Below are positions 11,992 to 54,196 of a DNA stretch of 64,000 nt, in pieces. Source of the DNA: Solimonas aquatica (GTDB lineage Bacteria > Pseudomonadota > Gammaproteobacteria > Nevskiales > Nevskiaceae). A model generated the notes under the pieces. That model was not told the DNA's origin, searched no databases, and worked only from the letters and a program-made list of their open reading frames with translations. The stretch spans positions 186,001 to 250,000 of the forward strand of contig NZ_FOFS01000004.1 in the NCBI RefSeq assembly GCF_900111015.1, given 5' to 3'. Position 1 is the first letter of the stretch; each line of letters begins with the position of its first letter. Made by a program: the position numbers and the translations under genes.

Positions 11992-12036
11992 TGGTGGAGC
12001 GGAGGAGGATCGAACTCCCGACCTTCGCATTGCGAA
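11992..12036 (-). pseudogene. tRNA-Ala(CGC) 3' half, host copy separated by island insertion
   Basis: On the minus strand this reads as the anticodon loop TTCGCAA, the descending anticodon strand TGCGA, variable loop AGGTC, T-arm GGGAG-TTCGATC-CTCCT, acceptor strand CCGCTCC, A and encoded CCA. There is no matching 5' half next to it. The acceptor strand pairs with GGGGCGG at 54,182, the start of the orphan 5' half at the other island end, including the G3-U70 alanine identity pair, and the anticodon strand pairs with TCGCG there. So this is the displaced 3' part of the host tRNA-Ala(CGC). An intrinsic terminator follows at 11,948-11,971. Confidence 0.88.
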
Positions 12037-12039
12037 CGC
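12030..12039. repeat. Left attachment core of the island (attL)
   Basis: The 10-bp sequence TTGCGAACGC here is repeated directly at 54,145-54,154. Both copies cover the anticodon loop and adjoining stem of the split tRNA-Ala, and sequence similarity stops just beyond each. A third copy lies in the intact island-borne tRNA (about 53,970-53,979). Confidence 0.75.
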
Positions 12040-38601: not shown

Positions 38602-40518
38602 TCAGTGCTCATGGGAGGGCTCCTTTGCAGGGGGCGATGTGTCAGGGGCCAGGGGCATCGCTGCGTGACCCGCATGCGGATCGGCAGAGGGCGTTTCACC
38701 ACACTTCTGCGTCAAGGCCCGATTAACAGTGTCGTCCGGGTGTACGGTGGCTTGCTTGCAAGCTTCGGGTGGCTCACCGCCCGGGGCGACATCGGGCATC
38801 GCGTGGTGCATGCCGGGCATCGAATGCCCTGCGTGTGGATCGGCCGCGGGCGCTGATGAAGGCATCTTGTGCTGCGAGTGATCCATGCCCTCCATCGGCA
38901 TCGCACCGTGATCCATGCCTTCCATGCCTTCCATGCCTTCCATGCCTTCCATGCCTTCCATGCCTTCCATGCCTTCCATGCCTTCCATGCCGGACGAGGG
39001 TGGCGTCATGTTTGGCATCGCATGTCCTGCATGCGGATCGCTGGATGGCTTCGGACTGCCTCCGTGTTGCGCGTGATCCATGCCGCTCATTGAGTGCATG
39101 CTGTGATCCATGCCACTGCGCTTCGGCGCCACAATCTGGCTCGCATCGATCGTCGCTTCCGCCGCCTGCTCGCTGCTCGGCAGGCGTCGACCGACCGCGC
39201 GCGCCAGTGCGCTGCGGCTGGCCCAGTAGCTGCGGACCGCATCGATGTAGCCGGCGTAAGCCTCATACTCCTGCTGCTTGGCCGCGAGCACTTCGAAGAC
39301 GCCGATCAGCATGTAGTTCTGCTCTTCCTGCATGCGGGCGGCGACAGCTTCACGCTGCGGAACCAGCACATCGCGATACTCCTGCGCGAGCTGCCGCAGC
39401 GCCTGCACCTTGGCTGCCTCGCGTGCCACGTCGTTCGACACGTCGAGCACGCGACCGTCAAGTTCCGCCTCGGCTTGGTCGAGTGCGGCCTGCGCAGCGG
39501 CCACGCGGCCGCCGCCCCAGTTGAACAGCGGCAGTTCCAGCGAGAGGGTCGGACCGACATCGAGGGCGCCGTCGAAGTCACGCTCGCGTTCGACACCGAT
39601 TTCGACGCTGTTGATGAAGCGCGTGTGGCGCGTCAGTCCGAAGCGCGACGCAATCGCCTGCGACCGACGCCGTAGCGCCGCGACATCGAGGCGGCTGTCG
39701 AGCGCCAGACGCTGCAGGGCTTGCACGTCGTCCTCTTGGGGCAATGGCTCGGCGAGACGGGCATCGAGCGTCCAGCTCGATTGCGCTGCCGGCAGACCCA
39801 TCAGGCGATTCAGCGTGCTGTGCGCCTCGACAGCGGCGGCCCGCGCAGATAGTGAAGCCAATACCGCTTGGCTGGCCGATGCGCGCTCCATCGCCAGTTC
39901 GCGCGCGTTGATGTTGCCGGCGTCGAAGTAACGTTTTGCGAGATCGGCCGAGGCCCGCTGGGCTTTGGCCGCGGCCTCGCGCATTTGCGCGAGCTGTTCG
40001 GCGCCCACTGCTTCGTACCACGCCGTCTCGACCTCGGCCGCGAGATCGAGCGTAGCGGCGCTAACATCGAGCTTCGTCGCCTCGAACTGGTCGCGGGCGA
40101 AGCGGCTGTTCGCAGGAAGGAACAGCAGATTGACGAAGTTGAAGGCGATACCGAGCGTCAGCTGCGGCACGTTCGCGCCCGCGCTCGAATCGCCGGCCAG
40201 TCGCGTCAGCGAGAACGTCGGATTGGCCAACCGCCCGGCGTCATACAGATCAGCGGCTGCGAATCCGAGAGCCGCGGTCTGTTTGCGCAGGTTAGGGTTG
40301 TTGATCAGTGCCAATTGCACTGCTGTGTCCGCCGTCAGCGGAGCGCTCAGTGCCTGTGAAGTGAAGCTGTTGGCGTCGGCGATGTGAGGGGGGGCACGGC
40401 CGTGCTCCGCGGTGAGGCGAAGAACATCGCCACGTCCACCATCAGCAGGTACGCTCGCACAGCCTGCTATCCCCAGAAAAATCAGGGATACAGGAAACAG
40501 AAAATGTCGGGGAACCAC
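38602..40518 (-). CDS. TolC-family outer-membrane lipoprotein with Met/His-rich C-terminal tail
   Basis: This 638-residue protein starts with a lipobox (LGIAGC) and TolC-family helical repeats to about residue 470 ([78 protein letters not shown]). After that a tail of about 170 residues is packed with HSMSGMDHAQHGG, HAGHAMPNM, GMEG and HAGHSMPGMHHAM motifs, suited to copper binding. Normal family members end near residue 470, so the tail is an accretion. A 9-bp tandem repeat encodes part of it. No matching pump subunit is next to it, so it may work with CopA/oxidase products or as a periplasmic copper sponge. Confidence 0.85.
   Translation of the reverse strand: MVPRHFLFPVSLIFLGIAGCASVPADGGRGDVLRLTAEHGRAPPHIADANSFTSQALSAPLTADTAVQLALINNPNLRKQTAALGFAAADLYDAGRLANPTFSLTRLAGDSSAGANVPQLTLGIAFNFVNLLFLPANSRFARDQFEATKLDVSAATLDLAAEVETAWYEAVGAEQLAQMREAAAKAQRASADLAKRYFDAGNINARELAMERASASQAVLASLSARAAAVEAHSTLNRLMGLPAAQSSWTLDARLAEPLPQEDDVQALQRLALDSRLDVAALRRRSQAIASRFGLTRHTRFINSVEIGVERERDFDGALDVGPTLSLELPLFNWGGGRVAAAQAALDQAEAELDGRVLDVSNDVAREAAKVQALRQLAQEYRDVLVPQREAVAARMQEEQNYMLIGVFEVLAAKQQEYEAYAGYIDAVRSYWASRSALARAVGRRLPSSEQAAEATIDASQIVAPKRSGMDHSMHSMSGMDHAQHGGSPKPSSDPHAGHAMPNMTPPSSGMEGMEGMEGMEGMEGMEGMEGMEGMDHGAMPMEGMDHSQHKMPSSAPAADPHAGHSMPGMHHAMPDVAPGGEPPEACKQATVHPDDTVNRALTQKCGETPSADPHAGHAAMPLAPDTSPPAKEPSHEH
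38911..38991 (-). repeat. 9-bp tandem repeat (Gly-Met-Glu) inside the TolC-like gene
   Basis: Nine adjacent units of TTCCATGCC (plus strand; the first at 38,911 differs by one base) encode repeated Gly-Met-Glu ending in Gly-Met-Asp. By base count there are eight identical units plus one variant. Copy number could change by slippage without breaking the frame. Confidence 0.9.
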
Positions 40519-40625
40519 GAGGAATCTCCCAGAAAGCCCTGAAAAATGCCGCGCAACGCAGATCGCGCCGGCGACAGCGGACAGTCGCGCGCAGGCAGAA
40601 CCTGCGCCGCGACCGCGGCTTTATT

Positions 40626-41054
40626 TCAGGACTTACTGGGGGGACGAATCAGATCGAGGCCATGCGCCGCGAGCGGGCGCACTGGAACCTCGGCAACAGC
40701 ATAAGAATCGGTGAAGCGATCGAAGGCACGGGTGAACGTCATCGGTGCGATAGCGGCAACCGTACCCACACAGCCCGGCATCACGCAGTGGCCGCCGCAC
40801 TGACAGCTCGACGCGGTTGGCGCCTGAGCCTTCGTGGCGGCCGACTTCTCCATATGGCATTTCTGCCCGTGCATGCCGTGCATCGCGTGCATCTCATGCG
40901 GGCCTACGTCACTGAGTGCCATCACCTGCGCTGCCGTCTTCGCCTTGCCAGAGAGCACACCGTGCATGCCCATAGCCTGCGCAACGGGCTGGAACCCGAT
41001 GCACCAGATCAGCAGCAACGCGATATGGGCGGAAAAACGACGCATGACGAGCAT
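40626..41054 (-). CDS. Exported His/Met/Cys-rich protein
   Basis: From ATG 41,054 (142 residues) the protein has a signal peptide (FSAHIALLLIWCIGFQPVAQA) and a cluster HEMHAMHGMHGQKCHMEKS, then SSCQCGGHCVMPGCVG. These His/Met/Cys clusters look copper-binding. The mature C-terminus is hydrophilic. It lies 23 bp after cueR in the same direction and 107 bp before the TolC-like gene. ATG at 41,045 is an alternative start. No family recognised. Confidence 0.68.
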   Translation of the reverse strand: MLVMRRFSAHIALLLIWCIGFQPVAQAMGMHGVLSGKAKTAAQVMALSDVGPHEMHAMHGMHGQKCHMEKSAATKAQAPTASSCQCGGHCVMPGCVGTVAAIAPMTFTRAFDRFTDSYAVAEVPVRPLAAHGLDLIRPPSKS

Positions 41055-41077
41055 TAGACTCTGGAGATGGCGGAAGT

Positions 41078-41563
41078 TCAATGACCTTTCGCGCAGCAGC
41101 TACCGCCAGCGCCTGAAAGGTCTTCGAGAATCGGGCAGTCCGGTCGATCATCGCCGTGGCAACGTGTCGCCAGTCCCTGCAATGTGTCGCGCATGGCCTG
41201 CATTTCGGCAATCCGCTGTTCCAGTTCGGCGACATGCTGCAGTGCAAGCTTCTTGACCTGTGCGCTGCTGCGACGACGCTCCTGCCATAGCCCAAGCAGG
41301 GCCTCGATCTGCTTCATCGAGAACCCGAGCGTCCGTGCCCGCTTGATGAAGCGCAGCGTGTGGATGTCGTTGTCGCTATAGATGCGATAGTTCGAGAACG
41401 TGCGGTCTGCCACCGGCATCAGTCCGATCGACTCATAGTGTCGGATCATCTTTGCGGATACACCGGTCGCTTCGGCGGCCTGCCCGATGTTGAAGTAACC
41501 CGCATGGCGCGCATCAGCCAGTTCCAGCGTCGGGCGCGAGCGTCGCTTCGTTGTCGATGCCAT
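41078..41563 (-). CDS. cueR: CueR-type Cu(I)-responsive MerR regulator
   Basis: This 161-residue protein has about 20 extra N-terminal residues, then GYFNIGQAAEATGVSAKMIRHYESIGLMPVADR (winged helix) and the dimer helix. The metal loop RCHGDDRPDCPILEDL has two cysteines with seven residues between, as in CueR. A further C-terminal SCCAKGH pair is present, as in some CueR/HmrR proteins. It should activate the stretched promoters at 34,345, 43,797 and 43,854. It lies 16 bp after copA, so it is co-transcribed with its target. Confidence 0.88.
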   Translation of the reverse strand: MASTTKRRSRPTLELADARHAGYFNIGQAAEATGVSAKMIRHYESIGLMPVADRTFSNYRIYSDNDIHTLRFIKRARTLGFSMKQIEALLGLWQERRRSSAQVKKLALQHVAELEQRIAEMQAMRDTLQGLATRCHGDDRPDCPILEDLSGAGGSCCAKGH

Positions 41564-41579
41564 TGTGAACTCCGTTTGA

Positions 41580-43769
41580 TCAAGAATTGCTGACGCGGCG
41601 CGGCGTCCAGCGCATCAGCAACAAGGCATTGGCAAGCACGCTGACGCTACTCAGTGCCATAGCCGCGCCGGCAACAACCGGCGACAGCAGCCCGAAGGCG
41701 GCGAGTGGAATGCCTGCCGCGTTGTATACGAAAGCCCAGAACAGATTCTGGCGAATTTTGTGATACGTCCTCCGAGAGATGTCGAGGGCGTCGGCAACCA
41801 GTGCCGGATCACCCCGCATCAGGGTGATGCCAGCAGCCTGCATCGCAACATCGGTGCCGGTCGACATCGCAATGCCCACGTCGGCCGCGGCCAGTGCCGG
41901 TGCATCGTTGATGCCATCGCCAACCATTGCCACGACTCTGCCTTCGCTGCGCAGAGTCGATACGACGTCCACCTTGTCGGCAGGCAACACTTCGGCGCGA
42001 ACCTGCTCGATGCCGAGTTCCTGCGCCACGGTACGGGCCGCGGCTTCGAGGTCGCCGGTGATCATCACCGTCGTGATGTGCTGATCACGAAGTCGCGCGA
42101 TTGCGGTACTTGCACTGGGTTTCGGTGCATCACTGAACGCGAGCAGGCCGATCAGGTGAGGCGATGATCCTGCTTCCGCCAACCACGATAGCGTGCGTCC
42201 TTCTCTCTCAAGCTCAGCGCGTGGACCGTCGAGCCTCTGCATATCCACACCATGCTCCTGCATGAGGCGCGTGCTGCCGAGTTCGTACAACCGACCATCG
42301 ACGGCTGCCGCAATACCGCGTCCCGGCAGTACCCGAACATCAGTCGCCACCACGGAGGTGATCGAGGCTTGCTGCGCGGAAGACAGCGCCGCACGCGCAA
42401 GTGGATGCTCGCTGTTCGACTGAATCGCTGCGACCAGTTTCAGGACATCCGACTCCGCACCCGCCAGCGGGTGGATCGACACCAGTTGCGGATGTCCCGC
42501 AGTCAGCGTGCCCGTCTTGTCGAACGCAACCGTATCGACGCGGTGTGCGATTTCCAGCGCTTCGGCATCTTTGATCAGGATGCCGTGCTTGGCGGCGATA
42601 CCGGTACCCGCCATGATCGCTGCTGGTGTGGCCAAGCCCAAGGCACATGGGCAAGCAATCACGAGTACGGCGACGGCATTGAGCACCGCGGTGCTCCAGT
42701 CACCAGTGAAGAATCCCCAGCCGAGCAGCGTCAGCACTGCAATGCCCAAGACGACCGGAATGAACACCGCAGTGACGCGGTCGACAAGGCGCTGGATCGG
42801 CGCCTTCTTTCCCTGCGCGGTTTCGACCAGGCGGATGATCCGGGCCAGCGTGCTTTCGGCGCCAACGGCAAGCGTACGCAGTAGCAGCACCCCTTCGCCG
42901 TTGACCGCGCCGCCGGTGACCTGTGCGCCGACTTCCTTGGTGACGGGAAGGCTCTCGCCAGTAATCAGCGATTCGTCGACATGGCTGACTCCTTCGACGA
43001 CCTCACCATCGACCGCAATCCGCTCGCCGGGGCGTACGACCACAAAGTCACCAACCCGGACCATTGCTGCCGGCACATCGCATTCGATGCCATCACGACG
43101 GACACGCGCGACTTCGGGGCGTAAGGACTGAAGCGCGCGAATCGCAGCCGTGGTTTGGCGTTTGGCGCGGTTCTCTAGCCATTTACCGAGGAGCACCAGC
43201 GTGATGACGACGGCCGAGGCCTCAAAGTACAGATGCGGCATGCCACTGCTATCGCGCAGAAGCGTGACGACAGACAAGCCGTATGCGGCCGAAGTACCGA
43301 TGGCCACTAGCAGATCCATGCTGCCCGTCTTGGCGAGCAGGGACTTCCAGCCGGCGCGATAGAATCGCGCGCCGAGCCAGAACTGAACCGGCGTGGCCAG
43401 AACCCATTGCGGCCATCCGGGCAGCATGAGGTGTTCGTTGATCAGACTGCCGAGCATCGGCAGCGCCAGCGGTGCCGACAGCAGCGCAGCCAGCGCGACC
43501 GGCCACCACTCGGGCAGGCTTCTTGATGCCGTTGTTGCAGGCATCGGGGCACCACGCTTGTAGCCGGCCTTTTCGATGGCGGCGGCCAGCGGTGCGTCGC
43601 TGACGCCCTCTTGGTGCAGGATCGTGGCACGCTCGGTCGCCAAATTGACCTGCGCTTCGATGACGCCGGGCACGGCATTCAACGCCTTTTCGACCCGACG
43701 GACGCAGGATGCGCAGGTCATGCCTTCGATCAGAAGATCAGTGGTCGTTAGCGGCGAAGGGCTGTCCAT
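41580..43769 (-). CDS. copA: CopA copper-exporting P1B-type ATPase
   Basis: This 729-residue protein has a single N-terminal HMA domain (GMTCASC), copper-type CPC motif ([18 protein letters not shown]), phosphorylation site DKTGTLT, HP motif (SEHPLA) and [10 protein letters not shown] hinge. It moves Cu(I) from the cytoplasm to the periplasm. It leads a long minus-strand operon (cueR, exported proteins, oxidase, cytochrome, DUF411, nuclease-like). Its promoter is divergent to copZ in the 150-bp gap. Confidence 0.93.
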
Positions 43770-48633: not shown

Positions 48634-48843
48634 CTAAGCCGACGCTCCGTTGTCGCGCAACAGGTTCTCGGCACGGGCCACCTGCATAACCAACGAATCG
48701 ACGAGTCCAGCGCTCACATCAAATTCGTAACCGTACTGGGCCGCGAGCTTTTCGAGCTTGAGCATGCGGTCATGCAGAGCCTGATCGACCTGCAGCGTGA
48801 CCTTGTACGGCACCAGAACCACCTTCTTCTTCAGAAGAGCCAT
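48634..48843 (-). CDS. Small 69-aa protein, possible DNA-binding
   Basis: From ATG 48,843 (ribosome site GGAG) this encodes MALLKKKVVLVPYKVTLQVDQALHDRM..., with a basic start and helices of ribbon-helix-helix or coiled-coil type (LKLEKLAAQYGYEF; LVDSLVMQVARAENLL). It overlaps the end of the 317-residue gene by 74 bases in another frame. Small accessory proteins of relaxosomes or partition systems look similar, but no family is assigned. Confidence 0.55.
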   Translation of the reverse strand: MALLKKKVVLVPYKVTLQVDQALHDRMLKLEKLAAQYGYEFDVSAGLVDSLVMQVARAENLLRDNGASA

Positions 48844-49723
48844 TGGATATCTCCATAAACATCGATTGAGTGAATTGCATTCGGGGTTCAGCTCCGGCCA
48901 GAAGTGCCCTCGACGCTGCCATCGCTCGGGCCTTGTCGTCGGCGTCTTGCTGCCGGAGTTGTTCCACCAGCGAGAACAGTGTTCCGTCGCGGTACACGGT
49001 GACCCGGGGCATGTACGGCAGCATGGCTGGCAGCGGCGAGACATACGCCGCGGACTTGTGCTGCTTGCGGAATGCGGCCTCGGCCAGCGCGGCGAGTTGG
49101 GCGATGTCGTCGCGGACGCCGGAGAACATCGGGCTGCGCAACAGCGGCTCGATCTCCTTGCGTAGCGCGGTGTTGCCGATTCTCGCGGCCTGCTCCAGTC
49201 GAAGCTGCCATTGGCGATAGGTTTCGACGGTCAGGCGCCAAGTCCAGACACGCTTCTGGCTCTTCTTCTTGCGCGGATCGCGGACCGGCTGGTGTTGCAC
49301 GAGGCGGTAATGGCCCAGCCAGGTCAGCGGGATGCGATGGCCATCCTTCATCTTCTCTCGCTGGTGGATCAGGTCAGCGAACGGCTGATCGGTGAGCAGT
49401 TCGCCGGTCAGTGGATCGACGGCATGCCGCCCGCGCGTGGCCACGAGAAACCACTGGATGTAGCCGGTTTTTGATCCATCCGGAAACATCACGAGATAGG
49501 CATTGGCGCGACCCTTGGCCTGAGCGACGGCCCGCTGGCCGGGGCTCAGGTCGATCGGATACAACGCCCTCATCTTGGCCAGAAACCCGGCGGCCTTCTC
49601 ATAGTGAACGGAGCCGGTATTCCAATAGTGATAGCCGGTGGCAGCCAGGGTCTGCAGATACGACATGGCGGCAGCGCGGTGCTGCGGGATCAGAAAATCG
49701 GCATCGGTGGCGATCGCTTTCAT
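48770..49723 (-). CDS. Unknown 317-residue island protein
   Basis: This 317-residue protein has no known domain. It is basic in parts (RDPRKKKSQKRVWTWRLTVETYRQWQLRLEQAARIG), with conserved-looking pieces near the start (YLQTLAATGYHYWNTGSVHYEKAAGFLAKM, then GYIQWFLVATRGRHAVDPLTGE) and a Ser/Gly-rich tail. It could be a helper for the element's replication or transfer, being the first gene of the cluster with the 69- and 105-residue genes. No function is asserted. Confidence 0.62.
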   Translation of the reverse strand: MKAIATDADFLIPQHRAAAMSYLQTLAATGYHYWNTGSVHYEKAAGFLAKMRALYPIDLSPGQRAVAQAKGRANAYLVMFPDGSKTGYIQWFLVATRGRHAVDPLTGELLTDQPFADLIHQREKMKDGHRIPLTWLGHYRLVQHQPVRDPRKKKSQKRVWTWRLTVETYRQWQLRLEQAARIGNTALRKEIEPLLRSPMFSGVRDDIAQLAALAEAAFRKQHKSAAYVSPLPAMLPYMPRVTVYRDGTLFSLVEQLRQQDADDKARAMAASRALLAGAEPRMQFTQSMFMEISNGSSEEEGGSGAVQGHAAGRSGSA

Positions 49724-50224
49724 CGCGGTCTAACTCCTTGATTGCGTGAATTCGCTTCTCTGTTCCAGCGACGAACTAATAGAAGCTCCTATTCACCACA
49801 GTGTTCGGAGGCGGTACGCCGACCCAGCCGATGCTGGGTCGGCGTACCGCCTTGCGACTGCGGATGGCATCCAAGGAGGGCGAGAAATAGCGGCCCGTAC
49901 AGTGTGTGGTTCGCGATTGCCGATTCGGCAGGCCTCGCCGGAGAGGCGATGTACCGGCGCCGAACACTGTCTGGTTAGCGCCGAGGTGTTGGCGCACCCC
50001 GATGCTTCCGGAATCCGGAGGTATCACAGGGTGACAACGCCGACGCAGCCCGAACTTCAAGGGAAATCGACGTCCACACACTGTACAGACGCTGATTTCC
50101 AGCCCATCCGGCATGGAGGCATCGGGGTGCGCCAACACCACGTCGTCGAGCAGGACCCCACGCCAATGGGGAAGTCGTTAGCGCGCAGTGCCGGGAAACT
50201 CGCTTGCTGCGTGCATTGAGGGGG
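49724..50224. other. Non-coding stretch rich in long inverted repeats
   Basis: About 500 bases with no gene. It contains a perfect 20-bp hairpin with a 4-base loop (49,809-49,852), a 21-bp inverted repeat (49,985-50,005 with 50,119-50,139), a 13-bp one (49,897-49,909 with 50,074-50,086), and four copies of ACAGTGTNNGG, two in each direction (49,798, 49,899, then 49,960-49,970 and 50,074-50,084 inverted). The copy order is nested and symmetric. It may be recombination sites, a MITE-like relic or part of the RNA locus that follows. Confidence 0.6.
49809..49852. repeat. Perfect 20-bp hairpin
   Basis: Two 20-base arms (starting AGGCGGTACGCC and ending GGCGTACCGCCT) enclose the loop CGAT with no mismatch. 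Long perfect hairpins of this kind are cleavage or recombination substrates. No T-run follows, so it is unlikely to be a terminator. Confidence 0.8.
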
Positions 50225-51207
50225 TGTGGCGGAGTAATCCCGACGGTTCGTCGGAGTAGTCCCGCTCATCTATCTCAACGTTCTGAGAAGAACGAAGTTG
50301 TGCGGGTAGGACACTGCCCCTCGTAGGAAATGGCGAGTGTGGCGGGCGTAGGCAAAGCGGGTGTAACTCCCGCCCCGGTTGCGCTACCCCGAAAGGGATG
50401 CGCGGTCGGTGCCCGGTTCCAGAAGCCTTTGCATCGGAAACGATGCAGCGTGGCCATGCCGTAAGGCAGAGACGACGCGGACTCGGACGTGGACCTCGAT
50501 GTTGAGGTCTGCGAGCCGTAACGGGTGGAGCGGATGGTGATAGGGCGAAGAGGTATTGATCCTCAACGTCTTCCGGGTAGATCAAGTGCTGCTAGTCCCC
50601 GCAGGGGGATGCGAATCTGCAGTGAAGGAATTGTGGTGATGGAAGTAGTCGAGTCAGCTTCGGAGCTTCGTACCGACGAAAGGCCCGCAAGGGCTGAGCG
50701 CGATGGCGCAAACCACGACCGAGCAGACAGCGTACTGATCAGAGAGAACAGAGCCCACGTCTAACTACCGAAACCCCGACCCCGATGCGCTGGAAGGCAC
50801 CAGCGCGTTGTACCGGGTGGGGAGATGGGTGCCGAAGCGCGGCCGAATGGCCGAGCTGTTGTCCCGAAAGGACGACAGCCCCCGAAAGGGCAACGCAGGT
50901 GGCACAGGCGACGAAACGCTCGGGGAAGTGACCCCACTGCGCGCAAGCGCAGGGAGGCTGACGCCTCCGACGACGTGTACCCCGTGTAAACGGGTCAGCG
51001 GTACAGGCGACGGCCTTGGCGGGCTGTCGCTAGCTCCATGCCTTGACGGGCGGACGAGCGACATTGGAAAGGTGCTGCAACGATTGTTCGGCTTGACGGC
51101 CGAATGATCGAAGGTCAGTGAATGCAATTATCAGGACAGTGAAGGAGCTGTTGTTGTTCTCGAAAACCCCTCCCGCTCGTGCTTCGGCATGGGCGGGAGG
51201 GGGTTTT
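50225..51207 (+). ncRNA. Putative large structured RNA with many GNRA hairpins
   Basis: No gene is convincing on either strand here. The plus strand forms a chain of hairpins with GNRA tetraloops: 50,279-50,294 (CGTTCT-GAGA-AGAACG), 50,388-50,397 (GAAA), 50,431-50,446 (GCATCG-GAAA-CGATGC), 50,457-50,468 (GTAA), 50,683-50,694 (GCAA), 50,881-50,890 (GAAA), 50,937-50,952 (CTGCGC-GCAA-GCGCAG) and 50,981-50,994 (CCCGT-GTAA-ACGGG). More stems lie at 50,240, 50,492, 50,787, 50,840, 50,856 and 50,953. GNRA loops appear only in the plus orientation. A terminator at 51,163-51,207 closes the unit. The family could be a giant ornate RNA or a group II intron relic; no protein partner is nearby. Confidence 0.62.
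51163..51207 (+). terminator. Strong intrinsic terminator at the end of the RNA locus
   Basis: The arm AAAACCCCTCCCGC pairs with GCGGGAGGGGGTTTT (one extra G bulges) around a GC-rich loop of about 16 bases, ending in TTTT. It fits a terminator for plus-strand transcription and can work in the other direction as well. Confidence 0.82.
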
Positions 51208-52402: not shown

Positions 52403-53797
52403 TTAGCTGACGACCGTCTGCATTTCTTTGCCCAGCAGCGCGTCCAGACCTTTCTTCGCCATTGCGCCAAACATCTTTGCCGCTTTGGGAGAGGTGACCC
52501 GGGTATATCTCTGAATCGACCGAGCGTCGCGGTGGCCGGTGAACTTCCCCACCACCGCCTGCGGCACACCGCCTTCAAGTAGTGCTGTCGTGAAGGCAGC
52601 ACGGAGGATATGAGGTGAGAAGGTGCCGATTGAGCGGGCATGCCATTGGCATTTCTCCATCGCGGCCTTCAGTTCATCAGCAGTGAAGTCGAAAAGGGAT
52701 TTCTGATCAGGCCGCGTCAGTATCCGCACCAGTTCAAGTGCCTCGTACGAAACTCGCCTTCTACGAAGCGTGGTGCCCCTCGGATTGTCGAACTTGATGA
52801 CGCAGGCACCCCAATCCGTCGCGTCGGCACGCAGCGTCAGGAGTTCCTCGATGTTCTTCAGCCGGGGCAGAAGCAGGAACAGCTGGATCGCCCCAGCGAA
52901 TCGCCCGCCGTCGAGCCTGCGCGCCGCGATCATGATGGAAGTGCGTCGCGACAAAATGGCGTTGACCTTGGTCACCCGATCGGGAAGAAACTTGAAGTAC
53001 CTCCCGTCTTCGCCCACTTTCAGTCGGCGAAGCAACGCCATCGCCGGAGGTGCGAGGGCTCGCGTCTCAGCCCCGGTCTTGGTGATAGGAAAAGCGATCG
53101 TGCAGTCTTCCCAATTGACCCATGACTCTTGAAGTAAGAAGGCTTCGGTACGGCGCATCCCAGAGAACAGTAGAAAGCGATAGGTGTCCGCGAAGCATCC
53201 GCCCTGAAAGAGCGCCAGCTGTCGCTCGAACTCCTCGAACTCGCCCTCACGTAGGTTGCGCTCGCGTGGGTCCGCGCCCTTGGGACGCTTAGAGGGGGAG
53301 ATGAACCGGCACGGATTCTGGAACCTGTGAAGGCCCAAGTCAGTGGCGGCGAAGTTCAGGACGGCGGCGAACGTATCCAGACTCCGCCTGATCGAGGATT
53401 CCTTGTAGCGCCCACCGCCCGGCTTCTCCATCTTTCGGAATTGGTCCAGCCAGGTTTCGACATGGCTGGCATCAATCGCCACGACACGCATTTCGCCCAG
53501 GAATGATTCAGAAAGGCGTCCGAGCGCTGCCAATTCGGAAACACCGCAGGCAACCGTCTTGCCGCGATGCGCGGCAACCTGCTCCGCATATCGCGGCAGG
53601 ATGTCGTTCAACGTCGCAGTGCGGGCACGGCTTTCCAGCACCTTGCTGCCGTTCGCGATCTGCTCCAGGCGCGAGTTATGCCATCGCTCAGCCTGCTTGA
53701 GGCTGTCGAAGGTTTGGGACTCGGTGGGCTGGCCTACAACTCGGATAACGGCGGTGTAACGCGCGCCGCTTTTGCGCTTTCGCTTGTGAATCGCCAC
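52403..53797 (-). CDS. int: Tyrosine-family site-specific integrase
   Basis: GTG at 53,797 with GGAG ahead is the best start (464 residues); the frame runs to a TTG at 53,851, but that would translate through the 20-bp repeat. The N-terminal part has an arm-binding pattern (MAIHKRKRKSGARYTAVIRVVGQPTESQTF) and a core-binding domain. Catalytic residues are recognisable: Arg in FSGMRRTEAF, HxxR in SPHILRAAFTTALL, then TGHRDARSIQRYTRV with His and the nucleophilic Tyr. It sits 135 bp from the island-borne tRNA, transcribed away from it. It should catalyse insertion at the tRNA-Ala anticodon loop. Confidence 0.92.
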   Translation of the reverse strand: MAIHKRKRKSGARYTAVIRVVGQPTESQTFDSLKQAERWHNSRLEQIANGSKVLESRARTATLNDILPRYAEQVAAHRGKTVACGVSELAALGRLSESFLGEMRVVAIDASHVETWLDQFRKMEKPGGGRYKESSIRRSLDTFAAVLNFAATDLGLHRFQNPCRFISPSKRPKGADPRERNLREGEFEEFERQLALFQGGCFADTYRFLLFSGMRRTEAFLLQESWVNWEDCTIAFPITKTGAETRALAPPAMALLRRLKVGEDGRYFKFLPDRVTKVNAILSRRTSIMIAARRLDGGRFAGAIQLFLLLPRLKNIEELLTLRADATDWGACVIKFDNPRGTTLRRRRVSYEALELVRILTRPDQKSLFDFTADELKAAMEKCQWHARSIGTFSPHILRAAFTTALLEGGVPQAVVGKFTGHRDARSIQRYTRVTSPKAAKMFGAMAKKGLDALLGKEMQTVVS

Positions 53798-53834
53798 ATG
53801 GCCTCCAACGTCCGGCCATGCCGGACAGTGTCCT

Positions 53835-53854
53835 TGCAACCAAAATTGCAACCA
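53835..53854 (+). repeat. 20-bp direct repeat, right copy (putative integrase arm site)
   Basis: Identical to 12,156-12,175 and placed 38 bp upstream of the integrase start. It may double as an integrase autoregulation site. It contains two TGCAACC motifs 12 bp apart. Confidence 0.6.
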
Positions 53855-53931: not shown

Positions 53932-54007
<76 letters not shown>

Positions 54008-54144: not shown

Positions 54145-54154
54145 TTGCGAACGC
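54145..54154. repeat. Right attachment core of the island (attR)
   Basis: TTGCGAACGC, identical to 12,030-12,039. An inverted copy of part of it (GTTCGC at 54,131) lies 15 bp away, giving an imperfect palindrome that fits a recombinase core site. Confidence 0.72.
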
Positions 54155-54182
54155 GACGCTCTCCCAGCTGAGCTACCGCCCC
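54145..54182 (-). pseudogene. tRNA-Ala(CGC) 5' half, host copy, severed by the island
   Basis: Minus strand: GGGGCGG, TA, GCTC-AGCTGGGA-GAGC, G, TCGCG, TTCGCAA, then unrelated sequence (CGAAAAG...). It is the 5' half of a tRNA-Ala(CGC) broken just after the anticodon loop. It completes with the 3' half at 11,992-12,036 without a mismatch. The native promoter lies at 54,197-54,225. Transcription from it would read through 137 bp into the intact island tRNA at 54,007. Confidence 0.9.
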
Positions 54183-54196
54183 ATACGAGGACGCGT

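Follow-up and report, generated by a model that had tools for sequence, protein, structure and literature searches.

Which kind of RNA is encoded at positions 50225-51207 of this stretch of Solimonas aquatica DNA (64,000 nucleotides, called the window below), where both strands lack a plausible gene? A sequence-only reading had described a large, intron-like structured RNA on an integrated island, with eight GNRA-capped hairpins in plus orientation and a terminator at its end, and had left its class unnamed. All eight loops are present on the plus strand, each with a stem of at least 3 bp, and three further loops with 3-bp stems, unlisted before, were found (Table 1). With minimum stem lengths of 3, 4 and 5 bp, the plus strand contains 11, 7 and 5 GNRA hairpins, compared with means of 2.75, 1.05 and 0.46 in dinucleotide shuffles, and the observed counts were matched by none of 300 shuffles at any of the three cut-offs. 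The corresponding counts for the minus strand are 1, 0 and 0. The minimum free energy of the plus strand is -463.8, against a mean of -399.9 in 40 shuffles (z -6.4; best shuffle -423.7), and that of the minus strand is -389.2. The five longest of the 11 ORFs of at least 60 amino acids overlapping the region (79-135 amino acids) gave no Pfam match at E 0.001, in agreement with the lack of a gene, and neither did two ORFs just left of 50225 (157 and 121 amino acids). The terminal hairpin was also confirmed, with 16 pairs and a T-rich tail; one terminator-like site in the region, against a shuffle mean of 1.2, is no excess. The start given previously, 50225, was too far to the right, as P1, P2, domain V (D5) and the start of domain VI (D6) are found at 50126-50226. 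The RNA begins at or before 50126 and ends near the terminator. The key evidence on its identity is the anatomy of D5/D6, the splice sites and the kissing loops, not the number of GNRA loops.

At gathering score, the only Rfam match in the whole window is a tRNA. A permissive scan of 1.9 kb gave seven matches up to E 10, of which the single meaningful one was to RF00029 at 50179-50279 (36.2 bits, E 5.7e-5; gathering score 40). The best match to a D1-D4 model was group-II-D1D4-4, with 12.5 bits and E 8.4. The Rfam search suggested earlier thus pointed to group II introns, below threshold, and not to GOLLD, ROOL, OLE or HEARO. The size and the GNRA-rich fold would suit another large RNA class such as these, but none is among the seven matches and the tRNA is the sole match in the window at gathering score, and we give almost no credence to an assignment of that kind.

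The RF00029 match lies at the left edge, before the body of the RNA, whereas in an ordinary group II intron these domains would follow the body. A literature search turned up a description of natural circularly permuted (CP) group II RNAs (Roth et al. 2021, PMC8637638), large ribozymes that have only recently been recognised as a class. In these RNAs D5 and D6 come first, the splice sites are reversed and internal, and linker circles of 15-86 nt are formed. P1 and P2 stems with pseudoknots are present, an intron protein is absent, and acpG (TTHC007 of Thermus) is a frequent neighbour. CP RNAs of five species were active in vitro, and the biological role is stated to be unknown (PMC8637638). 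The window RNA is very probably a CP group II ribozyme, in an unusual form with canonical-like splice signals. Its parts follow in the order P1, P2, D5, D6, a 20-nt linker, D1-D4 and terminator, an order that is likewise very probable as a whole; within it, the assignment of D2-D4 is putative.

Table 1. Features of the RNA, its neighbour and the island (window coordinates; splice sites, branch point and tertiary partners are predicted).
Feature	Position	Strand	Basis or remark
AcpG homologue, 317 aa	48770-49723	-	divergent from RNA; tblastn to plasmid relatives, profile vs TTHC007
Upstream hairpin P0, GGUG-UUGGCG-CACC	49984-49998	+	complements P1 loop; in L007, too, a UUGGCG hairpin precedes P1
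P1 hairpin	50126-50139	+	stem GGUG/CACC, loop CGCCAA (50130-50135); same hairpin in L007
P2 hairpin	50156-50171	+	stem CCCCA/UGGGG, loop CGCCAA (50161-50166); L007 loop CGUCAA; stem covaries
Domain V (D5)	50181-50214	+	8-bp lower helix, bulge UU (50204-50205), GAAA loop (50195-50198)
Domain VI (D6)	50216-50278	+	bulged A50272; internal loop AGUAAUC / AGUA; RF00029; pairs kept in L007
Predicted 3' splice site	50279..50280	+	after C50279 (ends AC); homology to D6 end, AY rule
Linker	50280-50299	+	20 nt; hairpin GUUCU-GAGA-AGAAC; IBS1 GAAGUU (50294-50299)
5' splice site GUGCG, domain I start	50300-50304	+	GUGCG also in L007
Domain I hairpin CUCG-UAGGAAAUGG-CGAG	50320-50337	+	by inspection
EBS1 subdomain, domain I	50651-50681	+	EBS1 AGCUUC 50664-50669; 6/6 with IBS1 (one G-U)
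3' hairpin H1	51007-51030	+	loop UUGGCG (51016-51021); UUGACG in L007; predicted kissing partner of P2
3' hairpin H2	51039-51052	+	loop UUGACG (51043-51048); L007 counterpart UUGGCG
3' hairpin H3	51082-51109	+	loop UUGACG (51093-51098); L007 counterpart UUGGCG
Intrinsic terminator	51167-51202	+	16-bp stem; T-rich tail; similar hairpin at corresponding L007 place (by eye)
GNRA loops listed before, part 1	GAGA 50285, GAAA 50391, GAAA 50437, GTAA 50461	+	
GNRA loops listed before, part 2	GCAA 50687, GAAA 50884, GCAA 50943, GTAA 50986	+	
Further GNRA loops, 3-bp stems	GTAA 50234, GCGA 50611, GGAA 50792	+	unlisted before
Integrated island	11987-53970		near-identity to S. flava
Partial tRNA copy (90%)	12010-12039		left island end; S. 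flava 50-base counterpart (92%)
Tyrosine integrase	52403-53851		right island end
tRNA-Ala	53932-54007		right island end

The triad of D5 is, by position, CGC (50182-50184), the UU bulge is held in a 1-by-3 internal loop, and the upper stem has four pairs and one mismatch beneath the GAAA loop. The bulged adenosine of D6, A50272, is the predicted branch point. The predicted 3' splice site is uncertain by 1 nt, one base earlier being possible; if it follows C50279, the delta pair would be G with G. At the 5' splice site, GGGCG is found in 25 of 26 CP loci outside the window type, ie the 25 acpG-linked RNAs of the other type plus pPNAP05, with near-duplicates (L013/L020, L018/L023 and L036/L037) among them; the remaining locus, L049, has GGGUG. 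GUGCG is restricted to the window type among the loci compared. The stated CP motifs are GGGCG at the 5' splice site and NU at the 3' end, against the canonical rule GUGYG/AY (PMC8637638), so that GUGCG weakens the claim of the window RNA to the described consensus. Applied to pPNAP05, our boundary rule gives a linker of 32 nt, equal to the published size (PMC8637638). Near the place of the domain I hairpin at 50320-50337, the AGGAAAUG loop is also found in L012, L013, L014 and L049; the hairpin is absent from L007 and from loci such as L036.

One diverged homologue, L007, was found, in a genome (G053) of another genus of the family. Its linker is 28 nt long and has a hairpin of its own. Alignment of the two RNAs with MAFFT and RNAalifold revealed many paired double changes, so that the compensatory changes proposed earlier as a check are present. 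All 37 pairs of P2, D5 and D6 are kept in both RNAs, 11 of them through double changes, compared with 36.5-45.9% of cells paired when the structure was slid; the structure was drawn by hand from the same two sequences, which favours it somewhat. Helices 4 and 5 of D6 show five double changes. These two are the only independent window-type sequences, the Solimonas flava copy being identical to the window.

The EBS1 subdomain (GAG...GAAA) can be recognised in the window type and in the usual CP type. EBS1 pairs with IBS1 at six of six positions in the window (AGCUUC with GAAGUU) and at five of six in L007 (UGCUUC with CAAGCA). In L044 the pair is AGUCCC with GGGACU, most other loci have AAUCUC with GAGAUU or a near form, and the weakest pairing, four of six, is that of L011 (pTT8). 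For a test of covariation 23 loci were listed, from which L046 (no pattern match) and L035 (sole match ATCTTT, judged not homologous, which would pair at three of six positions) were dropped, leaving 21 loci with 14 distinct pairs. Of their 84 positions 77 pair, compared with a mean of 64.1 after re-pairing, and none of 20,000 re-pairings reached 77. Where a locus had several pattern matches, the match in the common context was taken. The stricter pattern missed the EBS1 of both the window and L007, which were chosen by best complementarity inside the subdomain; in both, the distance from GAAA equals that in the other loci. A first candidate for EBS1, near 50761, was dropped once the homologous subdomain at 50651 had been found.

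The hairpin loops of the window are, in order, UUGGCG, CGCCAA (P1), CGCCAA (P2), UUGGCG (H1), UUGACG (H2) and UUGACG (H3), and those in the corresponding places of L007 are UUGGCG, CGCCAA, CGUCAA, UUGACG, UUGGCG and UUGGCG. P2 and H1 therefore change together in a compensatory manner, from CGCCAA/UUGGCG in the window to CGUCAA/UUGACG in L007, and H2 and H3 also change together. The P1 loop fits H2 or H3 perfectly in L007, and in the window only H1 or P0. No perfect partner, CGUCAA, for H2 and H3 was found within the window RNA. Some other CP RNAs, for example L046 and L012, also have CGCCAA with UUGGCG loops, according to an automated table that had no shuffle control and in which many five-base matches may be due to chance; the window loops were read separately. 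P0 is a candidate part of the transcript. A 31-base inverted repeat (90%) has arms at 49979-50009 and 50115-50145, with complementary hairpin loops UUGGCG and CGCCAA, and a near-perfect 44-base palindrome is located at 49809-49852, between acpG and the RNA.

The pairings bear on two other explanations. An ordinary group II intron might by chance have its 3' end next to an unrelated structured RNA, which would account for D5/D6 at the left edge and for the failure of Rfam to recognise D1-D4 (group-II-D1D4-4 being its best match). However, the linker pairs with the downstream EBS1 and P2 with a 3' hairpin, the entire order recurs in L007, and acpG starts 458 nt left of D5, leaving no room for a reverse transcriptase (RT) or the usual D1-D4; chance abutment is very improbable. 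Alternatively, the RNA could be a CP group II RNA that has lost catalytic activity, in keeping with its departures from the published CP consensus and with H2 and H3 loops that lack a perfect partner. Its catalytic features are nevertheless kept or compensated relative to L007, and IBS1/EBS1 still pair at six of six positions, and we regard such a loss as improbable.

The place of the window type between CP RNAs and canonical introns was examined with two models. R1 is a D5-D6 model built from 19 of the 26 other CP loci (L048, L049, L014, L017, L020, L023 and L037 were omitted), and R2 was built from the two window-type RNAs. R1 gave the window 17 bits (E 0.036 over 207 kb) and did not report the RNA of L007; when 1.4 kb was searched and filters were off, E for the window was 2.5e-4. 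R2 matched the acpG-linked CP RNAs L049 (47.8 bits) and L048 (39.7 bits), which R1 also matches (36.1 and 44.3 bits, respectively), so that these two look intermediate. R2 also matched five more sites with 29-39 bits, in G011, G319 (two), G165 and G313. Each comes directly after an ORF read by eye as an RT, ie the sites are canonical introns, and Rfam confirms one of them (L055). No RT was found near the window RNA; the genome's two RT matches are both on contig C21 (G000:C21:165950-166572), where they are adjacent pieces near an RF00029 match at 167003-167076. In scans of the same length RF00029 reported none of L007, L038, L049 and L013. The likeness of D5/D6 to canonical introns is therefore clear for the window copy only, and that of L007 rests on its splice sites. 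In a whole-genome search, RF00029 brought up none of the plasmid CP records, a comparison that is unfair in that the window's own site was missed as well. By blastn, the window D5/D6 resembles the canonical intron L053 (E 0.003), and D1-D4 showed no significant likeness to CP or canonical introns. Short blastn matches in G073 and G018 (L004, L005, L009 and L010) were judged to be due to chance.

Two accounts of these likenesses were considered. A canonical intron may have been permuted a second time and replaced the usual CP RNA beside acpG. This agrees with two splice sites that both read as canonical, with the report of the window by RF00029 but not of the CP loci L038, L049 and L013, with the canonical sites reported by R2, and with the likeness to L053. 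The P1/P2 stems, kissing loops, linker hairpin, UN bulge, EBS1 subdomain and acpG synteny are, however, common to the window and the CP class, L048 and L049 are reported by both R1 and R2, and RF00029 misses L007, the only homologue; we consider a second permutation unlikely. Under the other account, which is possible but doubtful, canonical group II introns and the CP class would be linked by the window-type RNA as a survivor, permuted, next to acpG and tied by kissing loops but with splice sites still canonical and, in the window copy, a D5/D6 partly recognised by canonical models. The failure of RF00029 on L007 lowers the odds for both. If the RNA is such a link, it would reveal the route by which permutation came about, perhaps also its frequency, and that selection keeps the permuted order together with acpG, and not the CP consensus.

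The AcpG homologue beside the RNA has relatives on 11 plasmid records (tblastn, best E 3e-13). Compared directly, it did not match TTHC007 (E about 0.2), but a profile of seven such proteins did, with a probability of 96.8 and E 3.1e-10. Profile matches were obtained in 10 of 85 genomes of the order, 8 of 369 in the class sample and 2 of 398 in the phylum sample, G000 being common to the three sets. The 31 acpG-like places examined comprise 11 on plasmids, one on pTT8, 11 from genomes of the order and 8 new ones from genomes of the class. In 28 of them a CP-type RNA lies upstream in divergent orientation, at a distance of about 0.25 to 1.3 kb and sometimes with a small gene between. Twenty-five of these RNAs, including the split L017, are of the other type, and three (G000, G007 and G053) are of the window type; the three places without the RNA are L019, L021 and L040, in the last of which the contig ends too soon. 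Window-type copies thus occur in 3 of the 85 order genomes, two of them distinct, and, under stricter filters, in G000 alone in the class sample. Six of the 11 plasmid stretches that carry an acpG-like gene also have an annotated replication gene, a mere association but one that makes a role in maintenance of the element plausible. Searches of viral contigs gave no match to AcpG, a search of PDB sequences gave nothing convincing (best E 0.12), and the single-sequence fold prediction had a mean pLDDT of 36. In L017 (Pandoraea plasmid pPO70-4, 3040-4559) the D5-D6 region of the CP RNA is interrupted by a gene annotated as an IS256-family transposase, and two genomes have two acpG loci, each locus with a CP group II RNA (G066, L037/L039; G239, L044/L045). 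The small gene that follows acpG in the window (48634-48846) is weakly like the gene after acpG in L007 (25% over 60 amino acids, E 1e-4).

Relatives of the RNA itself were found neither in plasmids, phages and E. coli genomes by DNA search nor in viral contigs by one pattern search. The usual CP RNAs also escaped a regular expression written for D5. At gathering score Rfam 15 left the window RNA, L007 and the seven other CP loci scanned undetected, so such RNAs are easily left unannotated.

The proposal of an intron-like RNA on an integrated island was borne out, the RNA being kin to group II ribozymes in permuted order and the island lying at tRNA-Ala. All 983 bases of 50225-51207 are 100% identical in G007, which we infer to be Solimonas flava DSM 18980. 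Across 42.6 kb (11987-54608) the window shares 99.7% identity with S. flava; blocks of 500 bases are 100% identical from 47.6 to 54 kb and about 82% identical from 54 kb on, and left of 11987 there was no S. flava match in the stretch compared. A near-identical island with a right flank at about 82% suggests that the element probably moved between the species recently, with the RNA and acpG unchanged. Just outside the island, at 54145-54183, part of the tRNA-Ala sequence is present a second time. By ORF reading 38602-43769 contains likely metal efflux genes, for a P-type ATPase and for an outer membrane efflux protein whose repeats are rich in Met and His.

That the RNA is a CP group II ribozyme is argued for by the RF00029 match of D5/D6 before the body, the 37 conserved pairs, the covariation of IBS1 with EBS1, the joint change of P2 and H1, the divergent AcpG homologue, the linkage to acpG in 28 of 31 places, the lack of an RT nearby, the R2 matches to L048 and L049 and the linker size reproduced for pPNAP05. 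Counting against it are an RF00029 score under the gathering score, the failure of RF00029 to report L007 and three other CP loci, the 17 bits of R1 and its miss of L007, D1-D4 without significant blastn likeness, splice sites off the published CP motifs, the G-G delta pair that a 3' splice site after C50279 would give, the choice of EBS1 by best complementarity in the window and L007, H2 and H3 without a perfect partner, the small number of independent window-type sequences (two), and a promoter search that found no sigma-70-like promoter for the RNA.

The RNA is presumably expressed and, by analogy with CP RNAs tested in vitro (Roth et al.), would be catalytic. In the proposed reaction the 2'-OH of A50272 would attack the 5' splice site before G50300, which IBS1-EBS1 pairing would keep in place. 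The linker, its 3' end now free, would then attack behind C50279, at the 3' splice site, and be released by back-splicing as a circle of 20 nt. What remains would be a T-shaped RNA with a 2'-5' bond between D5-D6 and D1-D4. The permuted ends would be tied together by kissing loops, P2 with H1 and possibly P1 with another. The RNA may help to maintain or replicate the element, perhaps together with AcpG. A form with canonical splice signals on a recently moved element would test which features permuted splicing needs, bears on the origin of the CP class from introns, and predicts a small, defined circle.

Compared with canonical bacterial group II introns, the window RNA has the same D5/D6 geometry, a sub-threshold match to RF00029, and GUGCG and AY boundaries. 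It differs from them in order: canonical introns run from D1 to D6 with outer exons, whereas D5 and D6 lead in the window, EBS1 lies downstream, and the splice sites are reversed and internal. It also lacks the RT/maturase ORF that most bacterial introns have in D4, whereas each of the five canonical sites found by R2 follows one, and D1-D4 models give no significant match. The CP class itself is known; a form with canonical boundaries falls outside the motifs stated in PMC8637638, the main text of which does not contain the word "Solimonas".

From the CP class the window type differs in its 5' splice site (GUGCG, not GGGCG), in a 3' end that is AC (or AA) in the window and L007, not NU, in the mismatch within the D5 upper stem, and in the low score given to the window by a model of usual members. 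The D5 triad by geometry is CGC in the window and L007, and AGC in the CP class. D5 starts with AGC in the class, with the A unpaired, and with AGCGC (A unpaired) in the window and AACGC in L007. The P1 loop pairs with the 3' end in the class; its perfect fits are H2 or H3 in L007 and H1 or P0 alone in the window. The P2 loop pairs with the D2 loop in the class; in the window it pairs and covaries with H1, a candidate for D2. The likenesses are D5 and D6 placed before D1 (50181-50278, with the EBS1 subdomain at 50651), a D5 bulge that by inspection is UN (UU in the window, UC in L007) where canonical introns have AY, and a bulged adenosine in D6, A50272 and its L007 counterpart. The window RNA further shares with the class P1 and P2 stems with a kissing loop from P2 to a downstream hairpin, a hairpin-bearing linker within 15-86 nt (20 in the window, 28 in L007), EBS1-IBS1 pairing in both RNAs, the absence of an RT or intron-encoded protein ORF, and an acpG gene beside the RNA.
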